Source of the DNA: Rhodanobacter sp. C05
GTDB taxonomy: Bacteria > Pseudomonadota > Gammaproteobacteria > Xanthomonadales > Rhodanobacteraceae
Direction of reading: 5' to 3'
DNA: 64,000 nt
NCBI RefSeq assembly: GCF_002001165.1
Contig: NZ_MUNQ01000008.1
Coordinates: 1-64,000, forward strand
Shown piece after piece: positions 54,942-60,355 of the stretch; within the stretch, counting starts at the first letter, position 1; every line of letters starts with the position of its first letter. Below the pieces are notes generated by a model that was given only the letters and a program-made list of their open reading frames with translations, searched no databases and was not told the DNA's origin. The position numbers and the translations under genes were made by a program.

Positions 54942-56650
54942 GCACGCTGCAGTTGCGCCGACGCGAGAGCAAGGGCGTGGCCAGCGGCTGGCCGGACAGC
55001 GTGCATCCTGTATTGCAGCAGATCTACGCCGCCCGCGGCGTACTGGATCCCAGCCAGGTTGAACATCGGTTGGCCCGGATGCTGTCGCCGCAGCTGTTGG
55101 GCGGCATGGCGCAGGCCGTCGAGCTGCTGGCCGAGGCAATTCGTGATGACTGGACCATCCTGATCGCTGGCGACTACGACTGCGACGGTGCCAGCGGCAC
55201 CGCGGTGGCTGTGCGCGGCTTGCGACTGCTTGGTGCGAAGCGGGTGAGCTATGCCATACCCAACCGTTTCGTGCACGGCTATGGGCTGAGTCCTGCGCTG
55301 GTCGAATCGCTGCAGCCGACGCCACAGCTGATCGTCACCGTCGACAACGGCGTGGCCAGTGTGGCTGGCGTGGCAGCGGCCAAGGCACGCGGTATCCGCG
55401 TCATCGTCACCGACCATCACTTGCCCGGCGAGCAGTTGCCGGCATGCGATGCAATGGTCAATCCCAACCTGGTCGGCGATCCGTTCCCGAGCAAGATGCT
55501 GGCTGGCGTGGGCGTGATGTTCTATCTGCTGCTGGCCCTGCGTGCGCGGATGGATCAGCAGGGCGCCTTCGATGGCGCCAAACCCGATCTGTCGGTGCTG
55601 CTCGACCTGGTCGCACTGGGTACGGTGGCCGACCTGGTGCCGCTGGATTTCAACAATCGCATACTGGTCGAGGCTGGCCTTCAGCGTATCCGCAGCGGTC
55701 GCGCCTGCGCCGGCATCAGTGCGCTGGTCGAGTCCGGCAAGCGCAGTCTGGCGACCTTGTGTTCCAGCGATCTCGGCTTTGTCGTCGGACCGCGCCTGAA
55801 CGCAGCAGGGCGGCTGGAGGACATGCGCCTGGGCGTCGAATGCCTGCTGACCGACGACGTGGCGCAGGCTCGCCGTTACGCCGAACAGCTCGGCGCGATC
55901 AACCTGGAGCGCCGTGACCTGCAGGCATCGATGGTGGCCGAGGCTGAGCAAATGGTGGCAGGCATGACCGACATCGACGCGATCGGCGTGGCGCTGTACG
56001 AACCGAGCTGGCATGCCGGTGTCGTCGGTCTGGTTGCCTCGAAGCTGAAGGATCGCCTGCATCGTCCAGTGATCGCGTTCGCGCCGGCCAGCGAGGATGA
56101 CACTGACAATTTGCGCGGCTCGGCGCGCTCCATCGCCGGTTTCCATATCCGCGATGCACTGGCTGTGATCGACGCACGCCAGCCTGGGCTGATCGAGCGT
56201 TTCGGTGGCCACGCCATGGCGGCCGGACTGAGTCTCAAGACTTGCGACTATCCACGTTTCGCTGCGGTATTCGACGCGATCGCGCGCGAACTGATCGACG
56301 CCGAACGTTTGCAGCCAGTGCTGTATACCGACGGCGAATTGCCACCCGGTGCCGCTTCGCTGGCGCTGGCCCGGCAACTGCGCCATGCCGGCCCGTGGGG
56401 ACAGGCGTTCCCCGAGCCGCTGTTCGACAACCTGTTCGAATGCGTCAGCTGGAAAGTGATGGGCGAACGGCACCTGCGTTTGCAACTGCGCGACCCGCGC
56501 GATGGCGCGCTGCACGATGCGGTGATGTTCAACGCGTATCACGGCCAGCCGCCGCCACGGCAGCTGCGTGCTGCCTACGAGTTGATCATCAATGACTGGC
56601 AGGGCCGCGAGACGCCACGCCTGCTGTTGCGGCATATCGAGCCGGTCTGA
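54938..56650 (+). CDS. recJ: Single-strand-specific exonuclease RecJ
   Basis: The protein has 570 residues, the normal RecJ length. The start is TTG at 54938 overlapping the previous stop by 4 bases, with GGAG about 8 bases upstream. DHH-family motifs: AGDYDCDGASGTA (I), VTVDNGVAS (II), TDHHLPGEQLP (III), LVALGTVADLVPL (IV), then the DHHA1 domain with GFHIRDALAV and RFGGHAMAAGLSL. RecJ degrades 5' single-stranded ends in recombination and mismatch repair. Confidence 0.95.
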   Translation: MSTLQLRRRESKGVASGWPDSVHPVLQQIYAARGVLDPSQVEHRLARMLSPQLLGGMAQAVELLAEAIRDDWTILIAGDYDCDGASGTAVAVRGLRLLGAKRVSYAIPNRFVHGYGLSPALVESLQPTPQLIVTVDNGVASVAGVAAAKARGIRVIVTDHHLPGEQLPACDAMVNPNLVGDPFPSKMLAGVGVMFYLLLALRARMDQQGAFDGAKPDLSVLLDLVALGTVADLVPLDFNNRILVEAGLQRIRSGRACAGISALVESGKRSLATLCSSDLGFVVGPRLNAAGRLEDMRLGVECLLTDDVAQARRYAEQLGAINLERRDLQASMVAEAEQMVAGMTDIDAIGVALYEPSWHAGVVGLVASKLKDRLHRPVIAFAPASEDDTDNLRGSARSIAGFHIRDALAVIDARQPGLIERFGGHAMAAGLSLKTCDYPRFAAVFDAIARELIDAERLQPVLYTDGELPPGAASLALARQLRHAGPWGQAFPEPLFDNLFECVSWKVMGERHLRLQLRDPRDGALHDAVMFNAYHGQPPPRQLRAAYELIINDWQGRETPRLLLRHIEPV

Positions 56651-56731
56651 TCCTGCAAGTCTGGCTCCGCTCGCGTGCTTTTAACGCTATCCAGATCAAG
56701 CTGGCGTCCACCCCGTCGATGGAGAACGCTG

Positions 56732-57103
56732 GTGATTGCACAGATCGAGGGATTGCCGGCCGGCACGCTGGGTTTTCGCGCCCACAGCCAGGTCACGGCC
56801 GCCGATTACGAGAACATCATCGTGCCGGATGTCGAGGCGGCATTCGCGCTCAACCGCAAGCTGCGCGTGCTGTATGTCACCGCCGAGGATTTCACCGGTT
56901 TCGACCCAGGTGCGATGTGGGACGACGTCAAGATGGGCATGCGCCACTTCAGTGGCTGGGATCGCGTGGCGCTGGTGAGCGACGTGCCATGGCTGCGCAC
57001 GGCCACGGCCGCGATGAGCTTCATGATTCCGGCCGAGATCCGCCTGTTCCGTCTGAACGAACTGGATGAGGCAACGCAGTGGATTACCGAGCCATCGACT
57101 TGA
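56732..57103 (+). CDS. SpoIIAA-like (STAS-fold) protein
   Basis: The protein has 123 residues from GTG 56732 with GGAG about 7 bases upstream. The pattern FRAHSQVTAADYENIIVPDVE and LRVLYVTAEDFTGFDPGAMWDD with FIPAE-type end fits the PF11964 SpoIIAA-like family of small STAS-fold proteins. The function is unknown; many are found beside housekeeping genes. It lies between recJ and the asnB leader region. Confidence 0.85.
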   Translation: MIAQIEGLPAGTLGFRAHSQVTAADYENIIVPDVEAAFALNRKLRVLYVTAEDFTGFDPGAMWDDVKMGMRHFSGWDRVALVSDVPWLRTATAAMSFMIPAEIRLFRLNELDEATQWITEPST

Positions 57104-57124
57104 TGGACTATCCATTCGGGATGC

Positions 57125-57153
57125 TTGCGTATGGCCGTCCAATCTGCTCTAGT
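57125..57153 (+). promoter_or_regulatory. Candidate promoter of the asnB leader
   Basis: TTGCGT (57125-57130) and TCTAGT (57148-57153) are separated by 17 bases and match the -35 and -10 consensus in 3 and 4 of 6 positions. Transcription would start near 57160, giving a leader of about 60 bases before the GTG of the Asn-rich peptide. The match is modest. Confidence 0.3.
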
Positions 57154-57216
57154 CGGCCCATGTATTCGATGATCGCCAGCCTCAAGACCGCCACTGCGCC
57201 TTCCGCGCGGAGTCTT

Positions 57217-57282
57217 GTGCTGGCCGGCAACAACAATAATCGCGCGAACAATAACGCCAGCTTCTGGCGGGCCGACGCGTAG
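57217..57282 (+). CDS. Asn-rich leader peptide of asnB (attenuator)
   Basis: A GTG at 57217 with GGAG at 57209-57212 starts a 21-residue peptide ending at TAG 57280-57282. Codons 5-13 read NNNNRANNN, with seven Asn codons (AAC and AAT) at 57229-57240 and 57247-57255. In-frame ATGs at 57160 and 57169 would give 40- or 37-residue forms. The peptide ends just before the terminator hairpin and asnB follows 151 bases later. It is too short to be a functional protein; its likely role is to stall the ribosome when charged tRNA-Asn is scarce. Confidence 0.85.
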   Translation: MLAGNNNNRANNNASFWRADA

Positions 57283-57319
57283 CTTCAAGTTTCCGAAACT
57301 CACGCGAAGAAGGCCCGCC
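57255..57319 (+). promoter_or_regulatory. Attenuator pause hairpin and antiterminator
   Basis: Segment 1 (57255-57260, CGCCAG) pairs with segment 2 (57264-57269, CTGGCG) as a 6-bp pause hairpin right after the Asn codons. Segment 2 also contains GGCGGGCC (57266-57273), which is the exact reverse complement of GGCCCGCC (57312-57319), the 5' arm of the terminator. So pairing of 2 with 3 excludes both the pause hairpin and the terminator. A ribosome stalled on Asn codons would cover segment 1 and favour this antiterminator. Confidence 0.82.
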
Positions 57320-57341
57320 CAGTGCGGGCCTTCTTCGTTTT
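57305..57341 (+). terminator. Attenuator terminator before asnB
   Basis: Bases 57305-57318 pair perfectly with 57324-57337 (14 bp; arms around GAAGAAGGCCCGC) with a 5-base loop, followed by TTTT at 57338-57341. It lies 91 bases upstream of the asnB start codon and after no ordinary gene, as expected of a conditional terminator. Confidence 0.9.
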
Positions 57342-57432
57342 GCTTCATGCGAATCCGTTCGCGAAATGCAAAACCGACCATCCGTGGTCGGACTTTTCAA
57401 CTGAGCCGCTACCAACCAAAAGGACAGCAAGC

Positions 57433-59115
57433 ATGTGTGCGATCTTCGGAATGTTCGATCTGCAGCCGGGCGACGACCTCGCCGCCTTGCGCCGGCAAGC
57501 GCTGGAGCTGTCGCAGCGGCAGCGTCATCGCGGCCCGGATTGGAGCGGGGTGTTCGTCGACGCCGGGGTGATCCTGGTGCACGAGCGGCTGGCTATCGTC
57601 GATCCGGCCAGCGGTGCGCAACCGCTGCGTTCGCGCGACGGCGCACTGGCGCTGGCAGTGAACGGCGAGATCTACAACCACCAGGAGCTCCGCACAGCCA
57701 GCACCTATGACTTCACTACCGGCTCGGACTGCGAGGTGATCAATGCGTTGTATCGCGCACTGGCTGTAGACGATTCCCTCGTTGATCTTGTGGGCAAGCT
57801 CAACGGCATCTTCGCATTTGCCTTGTGGGACGGTGCAGCTCAGCGCTACGTGATCGCCCGCGATCCGATCGGGGTTTGCCCGTTGTACTGGGGGCACGAT
57901 ACGCAGGGCCGTTTGTGCGTGGCCTCGGAAATGAAGGCGCTGGTCGGCGTATGTGCGGACGTGGCACCGTTTCCGCCCGGCCATGTGTATGACAGCACCG
58001 ACAGCGAATTGCGCCGCTACTATCACAAGCCATGGCGTGACTATGCGCATACGCAAGGTCACGCTGTCGCCGCGCCGGTCTTGCGCCAGGCGTTCGAGCA
58101 AGCTGTGCATCGCCAGCTGATGACGGACGTCCCTTACGGCGTACTGCTTTCCGGTGGGCTGGATTCCTCGCTGGTTGCCGCGTGTGCCGCGCAGTTCGCC
58201 CGTCATCGCATCGAAGAGGGCGATCGCACCGAGGCATGGTGGCCACGACTGCATTCGTTCGCGATCGGGCTGGACGGCTCGCCGGATCTGGCTGCTGCGC
58301 AGATCGCCGCCGAGGCGCTGGGTACGGTGCATCACGGCTTCGTCTACACGTTCTGGGAGGGACTGGATGCGCTGCCCGAAGTCATCCGGCACATTGAAAC
58401 CTATGACGTCACCACCATCCGTGCGGCCACGCCGATGTACCTGCTGGCCCGCCGGATCAAGGCGATGGGCGTGAAGATGGTGCTGTCGGGCGAAGGCTCG
58501 GACGAGTTGTTCGGCGGCTACCTGTACTTCCACAAGGCACCGTCCGCCGAGGCATTTCACGAGGAAACCGTGCGCAAGCTCGATGCGCTGCACAGTTACG
58601 ACTGCCTGCGCGCGAACAAGGCGATGATGGCCTGGGGCGTGGAGGCGCGCGTGCCGTTCCTCGATCTGGAGTTCATCGATGTGGCAATGGGCATGGACGC
58701 GCAGCACAAGATGGCCGGGCAGGGACGTATCGAGAAGGCAGTCCTGCGCGAAGCCTTTGCAGGAGCGCTGCCGGATTCGATCTTGTGGCGCCAGAAGGAA
58801 CAGTTCAGCGATGGTGTCGGCTACGGCTGGATTGACGGCTTGAAGGCGCATGCAGAGCAGACCGTCAGCGATCGCGAATTCGCCGCGGCCACGGCGCGTT
58901 ACCCGTTCAACACGCCCGCGACGAAAGAGGCGTACTTCTATCGGCGCATCTTCGAACGGCATTTCCCGGGCGAAGCCTGCGCGGTCACTGTGCCGGGTGG
59001 CAAGTCGATTGCCTGTTCGTCACCGGCGGCATTGGCGTGGGATCCGGCGTTTGCCAATGCGGCCGATCCGTCAGGGCGTTCGGTACAGGGAGTACATAGC
59101 CATGCCGTGGGCTGA
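57433..59115 (+). CDS. asnB: Glutamine-hydrolysing asparagine synthetase B
   Basis: The protein has 560 residues, the normal AsnB length. The ATG at 57433 has AAGGA 8 bases upstream and puts Cys2 (MCAIFG), the glutaminase nucleophile, right after Met. Other motifs: RHRGPDWSG, NGEIYNH, the PP-loop SGGLDSS (240-246) of the synthetase domain, SGEGSDELFGGYLYF and WGVEARVPFLD. It makes asparagine from aspartate, glutamine and ATP. The leader before it predicts control by asparagine supply through attenuation. It is not a lasso-cyclase-type homologue, because the glutaminase Cys and normal length are kept. Confidence 0.96.
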   Translation: MCAIFGMFDLQPGDDLAALRRQALELSQRQRHRGPDWSGVFVDAGVILVHERLAIVDPASGAQPLRSRDGALALAVNGEIYNHQELRTASTYDFTTGSDCEVINALYRALAVDDSLVDLVGKLNGIFAFALWDGAAQRYVIARDPIGVCPLYWGHDTQGRLCVASEMKALVGVCADVAPFPPGHVYDSTDSELRRYYHKPWRDYAHTQGHAVAAPVLRQAFEQAVHRQLMTDVPYGVLLSGGLDSSLVAACAAQFARHRIEEGDRTEAWWPRLHSFAIGLDGSPDLAAAQIAAEALGTVHHGFVYTFWEGLDALPEVIRHIETYDVTTIRAATPMYLLARRIKAMGVKMVLSGEGSDELFGGYLYFHKAPSAEAFHEETVRKLDALHSYDCLRANKAMMAWGVEARVPFLDLEFIDVAMGMDAQHKMAGQGRIEKAVLREAFAGALPDSILWRQKEQFSDGVGYGWIDGLKAHAEQTVSDREFAAATARYPFNTPATKEAYFYRRIFERHFPGEACAVTVPGGKSIACSSPAALAWDPAFANAADPSGRSVQGVHSHAVG

Positions 59116-59229: not shown

Positions 59230-60355
59230 ATGATCGAGACCAATCCCATCCTTGCGCAGATCGCCGACCTCCGTGGCCGCGTCGAGTCGCTTAGGGGGTA
59301 TCTTTGACTACGCTACAAAAAGCGAACGTCTGGAAGAAGTAAGCCGCGAGCTGGAAAACCCGAACGTCTGGGACGATCCCGCGCGCGCGCAGGAACTGGG
59401 CCGTGAACGTGCCCGCCTGCACACCATCGTCAATGGCATCGACACGCTGACCTCCGGACTCACCGATGCCGGCGAACTGCTGGAGATGGCTGTCGCTGAT
59501 GGTGACGAAGACACCATCAATTCGGTAGTCAGCGACCTGGCCAAGCTCGAGGCGCAGGTGAGCAAGCTGGAATTCCAGCGCATGTTCTCCGGCAAGATGG
59601 ATTCCACCAATGCGTTCGTCGACATCCAGGCTGGCGCCGGCGGCACCGAGGCGCAGGACTGGGCCGAGATGCTGCTGCGCATGTATCTGCGCTGGTGCGA
59701 GTCGCGCGGCTGGAAGACCGAGTTGATGGAGGTCAGCGGCGGCGACGTGGCCGGTATCAAATCCGCCACGTTCCGTGTCGAAGGAGATTACGCCTACGGC
59801 TGGCTGAAGACCGAGATCGGCGTGCACCGGCTCGTGCGCAAGAGCCCGTTCGATTCGGACAACCGCCGGCACACAAGCTTCACCTCGGTGTTCGTGTCGC
59901 CGGAAGTCGATGACGACATCGACATCGAGATCAATCCGGCCGACCTGCGCACCGATGTGTACCGCTCGTCCGGTGCCGGTGGCCAGCACGTCAACAAGAC
60001 CGAATCGGCGGTGCGTATCACGCATATCCCCACCAATACCGTGGTGGCCTGCCAGACCGGCCGCAGCCAGCACCAGAACCGCGATACGGCAATGAAGATG
60101 CTGGCCGCCAAGCTGTATGAGCTGGAAGTGCAGAAGCGCAACGTAGAGCGCGATGCACTGGAAGCGACCAAGTCCGACATCGGCTGGGGCAGCCAGATCC
60201 GCAACTATGTGCTTGACCAGAGTCGCATCAAGGATCTGCGCACCGGCATCGAACGCACCGATACGCAGAAGGTACTGGACGGTGACCTGGACGAGTTCAT
60301 CGAAGCCAGTCTGAAGTCCGGCCTCGAAGCGGGTGCCAAGCGCATCGATGCGTGA
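59230..60355 (+). CDS. prfB: Peptide chain release factor 2, made by +1 frameshift
   Basis: Translation starts at ATG 59230 and reads 25 codons to an in-frame TGA at 59305-59307. A +1 shift at CTT TGA C continues in the frame that ends at 60355, giving a protein of about 374 residues. Motifs of RF2 follow: the stop-codon-recognition SPF (KSPFDSD), and GGQ in [13 protein letters not shown] for peptide release. The frameshift lets low RF2 levels raise RF2 synthesis. It lies 114 bases after asnB. Confidence 0.96.
59293..59308 (+). promoter_or_regulatory. prfB programmed +1 frameshift site
   Basis: AGGGGG (59293-59298) acts as an internal Shine-Dalgarno, followed by TAT CTT TGA C (59299-59308). 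This is the classical prfB recoding sequence, identical in form to the one described in Escherichia coli. Confidence 0.95.

Follow-up and report, generated by a model that had tools for sequence, protein, structure and literature searches.

Here we describe a leader region ahead of asnB in Rhodanobacter sp. C05 that very probably acts as a ribosome-mediated transcription attenuator, controlling asnB by sensing charged tRNA-Asn. The region lies within a stretch of 64,000 nucleotides of contig NZ_MUNQ01000008.1 (hereafter the window), and attenuation of asnB had originally been predicted from the letters of that stretch; the interpretation is now supported by conservation in relatives, by exchange of AAC and AAT codons and by coordinated change between families. 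We further consider it likely that asparagine here gains its first ribosome-mediated attenuator, in the form of an ancient asnB element common to Rhodanobacteraceae, Stenotrophomonas-like Xanthomonadaceae and one further family, whose leader peptide is leaderless and whose hosts rely on AsnB and AsnRS for Asn-tRNA. In the 4.25-Mb genome, recJ and a SpoIIAA-like gene that ends at 57103 precede the leader, and asnB, prfB and lysS follow it. As predicted, 91 bases separate position 57341 from the asnB start at 57433, and the identity of the gene is borne out by its product, which matches NF006949 at 842.7 bits (cut-off 499) and TIGR01536 at 431.7 bits and contains Asn_synthase and GATase_7 domains.

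In the mechanism that we propose, the transcript would begin at ATG 57160 or at most about one base away, and the leader peptide would be translated by a ribosome following RNA polymerase. When Asn-tRNA is short, the ribosome would stall in the Asn run, and a stall on 57247-57252 would cover segment 1 while leaving segment 2 (57266-57273) free; segment 2 could then pair with the emerging 5' arm of the terminator, allowing transcription to proceed into asnB. When Asn-tRNA is plentiful, the ribosome would reach the stop codon at 57280 and cover segment 2, whereupon the terminator would form and transcription would end. The features on which this scheme draws are collected in Table 1.

Table 1. 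Coordinates of the putative asnB attenuator and the gene it is proposed to regulate.
Feature	Position	Strand	Description	Basis or remark
Leader peptide ORF	57160..57282	+	40 codons, MYSMIASLKTATAPSARSLVLAGNNNNRANNNASFWRADA, stop TAG; probably leaderless	In-frame ATG at matching place in relatives; Asn kept while codons drift
Asn codon run	57229-57240 and 57247-57255	+	7 of 9 codons	Sequence, shuffle control, conservation
Promoter-like motif	57125..57153	+	TTGCGT 57125-57130, 17-nt spacer, TCTAGT 57148-57153, then 6 nt to ATG	Conservation
Possible pause hairpin (segments 1 and 2)	57255..57269	+	CGCCAG 57255-57260 with CTGGCG 57264-57269	Present in window; poorly borne out in relatives
Segment 2	57266..57273	+	GGCGGGCC, within the last leader codons, 7 nt before the stop	Pairs with 57312-57319 to give the antiterminator
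Antiterminator extension	57276..57280	+	CGCGT, pairs with ACGCG 57302-57306	88.6% of cells paired in 58 leaders
Intrinsic terminator stem-loop	57304..57338	+	15 pairs, loop 5, then TTTGCTTCAT (short T run)	5' arm contains the antiterminator partner 57312-57319
asnB	57433..59115	+	Asparagine synthase B (glutamine-hydrolysing), 560 aa	Proposed regulated gene

Within the window, the region combines a short open reading frame in which codons for the product of the downstream enzyme recur, an intrinsic terminator between this frame and the structural gene, and a mutually exclusive antiterminator whose 5' half a ribosome at the leader stop can cover. Such an Asn run goes well beyond chance expectation: 7 Asn in 12 codons was reached by 0 of 2000 dinucleotide shuffles of 57104-57432 (maximum 5, once), and a scan of all six frames found at least 6 Asn in 9 codons nowhere else in the window. 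The original prediction of an antiterminator joining 57266-57273 to 57312-57319 proved sound, as GGCCCGCC at the latter position is the complement of GGCGGGCC at the former; the terminator is also located where it had been placed (57305-57341, with 14 bp), with a stem one pair longer than proposed. The fold of 57217-57345 has a z-score of -3.3. In model folding of RNA extending to 57319, the probability of the antiterminator is 0.982 with the ribosome at 57229, 0.997 with the ribosome at 57247, and 0.745 or 0.997 at 57253 according to the assumed footprint; a ribosome at the stop codon brings it to 0, and with no ribosome at all it is still 0.99. In the full-length RNA the modelled terminator has a probability of at least 0.91 in every ribosome state, and the switch must therefore act during transcription. 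Such action during transcription is accepted for classical attenuators.

Conservation in relatives, on which the original prediction had staked itself, proved extensive. Among unique regions upstream of asnB taken from genomes of the order, an Asn-rich short ORF followed by a terminator (4 or more Asn in 12 codons, terminator no more than 110 nt beyond) occurs in 125 of 131 belonging to three families, namely 101/105 in the window's own family (f1), 21/23 in f2 and 3/3 in f3, these regions including many close relatives and hence not being independent. By the same count, the combination occurs in 1 of 44 regions from six other families (f8 1/21, f10 0/19 and 0/4 for four single regions). Three regions with less than 200 nt before asnB (L027, L066, L071) and duplicates by the last 200 nt were left out. 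The six exceptions in f1 and f2 comprise three regions where a terminator is present and the count is 3 Asn in 12 codons (L112, L142, L169), one with no leader seen in its 250 nt of upstream sequence (L126), and two without a leader whose AsnB is 64% identical (L184, L187). Named records in f1 include Rhodanobacter, Dyella, Frateuria, Fulvimonas and Dokdonella, while f2 includes Stenotrophomonas-like genomes, one of its AsnB proteins (L155) being 97% identical to a Stenotrophomonas AsnB. The single f8 case (L183, genome G117) has a 22-residue ORF with four Asn and a different terminator, AAAAGCCCGCTT/AAGCGGGCTTTT, the other 20 f8 regions having no leader; it could represent an ancestral remnant, a transfer or a separate origin.

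A covariance model built from 58 f1 leaders and run over 117 genomes of the family gave, by hand count, a single full-length match (E <= 1.3e-6) in each of 77 genomes, and asnB follows the match in 32 of the 77, these 32 being the ones checked by coordinates or by reading. Six weaker model matches that were read (L218-L222, L232) had neither an Asn-rich leader nor asnB. A class-level search of 203 genomes for the window type of AsnB yielded 4 matches at E <= 1e-150, and the sole one of these from outside the order, G321, has no leader upstream.

Within the leader ORF itself, the Asn residues have been maintained. Counting back from the stop in 103 f1 leaders, Asn occupies codons 10, 11, 14, 15 and 16 in 95, 99, 81, 95 and 88 cases, respectively, and AAC and AAT interchange at these conserved codons (36 AAC and 59 AAT at position 15), suggesting that selection keeps the Asn residue while the codon drifts. 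Outside the run, the peptide differs strongly between families. The reading frame, the ATG and, through synonymous exchange, the Asn identity are conserved; translation of the leader is part of the proposed mechanism.

The position of the leader start deserves closer attention. The original prediction had described a 21-residue peptide with seven Asn codons in nine; the run is present as stated, and the frame from GTG 57217 translates to VLAGNNNNRANNNASFWRADA with its stop codon at 57280-57282, but a start at ATG 57160, in the same frame, is more likely and gives 40 residues. In relatives, the in-frame ATG most often lies 40, 42 or 39 codons before the stop (40, 25 and 18 of 126 leaders), and a Shine-Dalgarno-like 4-mer precedes the leader ATG in 4 of 126. 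A TTG is found at promoter spacing before the leader ATG in 126 of 128 leaders, a figure that is somewhat favourable given that this ATG was picked among in-frame candidates by promoter geometry itself; the same promoter-like motif appears when the most upstream in-frame ATG is taken instead. The stricter combination of TTGC, a 17-nt spacer and 6-7 nt between the second hexamer and the ATG occurs in 103 of 128 leaders versus 9 of 1120 ATGs in the window. It is conservation that supports the motif, because a scan with a generic sigma-70 consensus found no promoter site in 56600-57500. The motif would put the start of the transcript on or next to ATG 57160, and the leader would therefore probably be translated as leaderless.

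These observations also bear on the possibility that the ORF encodes a functional, Asn-rich small protein with a terminator of its own, asnB being transcribed from a separate promoter downstream, which we regard as very improbable. The ORF is indeed conserved and is called a hypothetical protein in some records, this being the only name given among the listed matches of a protein search with a hand-composed leader. However, the peptide diverges strongly between families outside its Asn run, the explanation assigns no role to the co-change of the ORF end with the 5' arm of the terminator described below, and the lack of a promoter-like site in the consensus scan means that a downstream promoter is not favoured. 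Even less probable is that this anatomy responds to stalled translation in general, or to some other signal (a drug or a nascent peptide, for example), rather than to Asn-tRNA: any suitably placed stall would release segment 2, but Asn is the residue that recurs in three families whose peptides otherwise differ, and the downstream gene makes Asn.

Evidence that the leader end and the terminator changed together comes from comparing families. The f1 terminators have the core GGCCCGC/GCGGGCC, and a GGCGGGCC-like segment closes the leader ORF; most f2 terminators have AACCCGCATC/GATGCGGGTT as their core, and there GATGCGGG takes the place of that segment in the ORF. For 97 f1 and 14 f2 leaders (f3 was not part of this sample), the duplex between the leader end and the 5' arm of the terminator averages -21.1 and -22.5 kcal/mol, respectively, compared with -12.5 and -12.4 for shuffled leaders, and it falls to -12.8 kcal/mol when f1 leaders are combined with f2 arms and to -16.1 kcal/mol when f2 leaders are combined with f1 arms. 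At most 10 of 200 base shuffles match the leader in 84/97 f1 and 13/14 f2 cases; with codon-order shuffles the corresponding figures are 75/97 and 13/14, so that 22 f1 leaders fail. At the level of single pairs, an anchored table of 125 leaders, whose GGG anchor is missing from L028, L122 and L167, has one antiterminator pair as G-C in 83 of 101 f1 and as T-A in 16 of 21 f2 leaders. The antiterminator segment and the terminator co-change between families.

Variation inside each family is less informative for the antiterminator. In f1 it pairs in 93.1% of cells against 92.8% for column shuffles (slid controls, 22.6 to 50.0%), an absence of excess that arises because the f1 antiterminator core is nearly invariant; in f2, 91.9% of 123 cells pair and 5 of 9 pairs never vary. 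The structure comprising terminator and pause stem has a covariation score of 0.190 versus 0.106 for shuffles, with 0 of 500 reaching it, and the terminator stem is paired in 90.1% of cells with compensatory changes. That the terminator might be constitutive and partial within a GC-rich region, the matching ORF segment being there by chance, ranks alongside general stalling in improbability, for although GGCCCGC-type terminators occur elsewhere in these genomes and the f1 core hardly varies, the ORF segment and the terminator vary together from one family to the next, the Asn run greatly exceeds chance, and weaker off-site terminators that were read had no Asn leader in 6 of 6 cases.

The pause hairpin is the weakest part of the attenuator model. 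The original prediction of a hairpin at 57255-57269 holds in so far as these bases can pair in the window, and less well in relatives, where the pause stem is paired in 59.5% of cells; it forms in Rhodanobacter-type leaders, and Dyella-type leaders can form one in another register. The predicted hairpin is no more stable than in codon-order shuffles (median rank 45 of 100 in f1, 24.5 in f2 and 41 in f3), and sliding its pairs by -3 gives a covariation of 0.257, above the 0.148 of the window register. Neither result supports the hairpin as a strongly selected element. Attenuation can dispense with this hairpin as long as initiation on the leader is reliable.

The physiology of the host suits such a signal. 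The genome has one AsnRS above cut-off (asnS is present) and one AsnB-like protein, and searches of it for AsnA and for GatB found neither; the supply of charged tRNA-Asn should therefore hinge on AsnB or on asparagine import, and its level would then be a sensible signal for asnB. In four genomes of the window's family (G060, G066, G088, G183) there are only weak partial matches to AsnB, and their supply of asparagine or Asn-tRNA must therefore differ.

Ribosome-mediated attenuators have long been recognized in the trp, his, leu, thr, ilv and phe amino-acid operons. The asnB leader resembles these in its run of codons for the product amino acid, its terminator ahead of the first gene and its mutually exclusive antiterminator, and differs from them in concerning asparagine, in having segment 2 inside the last codons of the ORF, in being probably leaderless and in having a pause hairpin with weak support. 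Asparagine-specific T-box riboswitches are known in Firmicutes; like the proposed asnB leader they take tRNA charging as their signal and can act through a terminator, but there the RNA binds the tRNA directly and translation is not needed. A T-box identity for the asnB leader was rejected, as none appeared among 9 Rfam covariance-model matches up to E 5 in 56600-57800. Nothing in that interval reached a gathering score, and the Thr_leader family (RF00506), at 25 bits on the plus strand and 28.3 on the minus strand, fell below its gathering score of 55.

Two published systems offer closer parallels. In the trpL attenuator of Sinorhizobium meliloti, the ATG of the leader peptide ORF is reported to coincide with the 5' end of the transcript (PMC7298713), an arrangement like the one that sequence comparison suggests for asnB; that system differs in concerning Trp and trpE(G), in its 14-residue peptide and in having its 5' end reported. 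The second is uORFC-8-2, a leader ahead of cysS in Rhodobacterales for which ribosome-mediated attenuation was proposed from comparison (PMC8632094); like the asnB leader it is an upstream ORF in which codons for the amino acid concerned are conserved, and it differs in concerning cysteine, a tRNA synthetase gene and Alphaproteobacteria. The accessible parts of PMC2965389, PMC7298713, PMC3771888 and PMC8632094 describe no asnB attenuator, and we found no leader-peptide attenuator for asparagine or asnB in the open-licence literature, an earlier mention being possible since subscription papers lay mostly outside this search. Only some amino acids are known to have leader-peptide attenuators that respond to tRNA charging, and asparagine would join them if our interpretation is true. 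In that case the element may account for asnB control across a broad group of soil-dwelling and plant-associated bacteria, and it would provide well-defined parts for testing leaderless translation in attenuation, while databases would gain an RNA family for a leader that, where named, is now called a hypothetical protein.

Several further features of the locus may be recorded. The SpoIIAA-like small protein gene (PF11964) between recJ and the leader occupies 56675-57103. Between the terminator and asnB (57342-57404) lie palindromic stretches, e.g. GCGAATCCGTTCGC and CCGACCATCCGTGGTCGG; a search of the genome itself for this repeat returned just three weak partial matches (E 0.036 to 0.81), and similar stretches occur in one to several copies in the asnB upstream regions of relatives (L007-L033), where the distance from terminator to asnB ranges from 24 to 384 nt. 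Downstream, the beginning of prfB (59230-59310) has an in-frame stop at CTTTGA 59302 after 25 residues, with the remainder of RF2 in the +1 frame, which corresponds to the known programmed frameshift of prfB.
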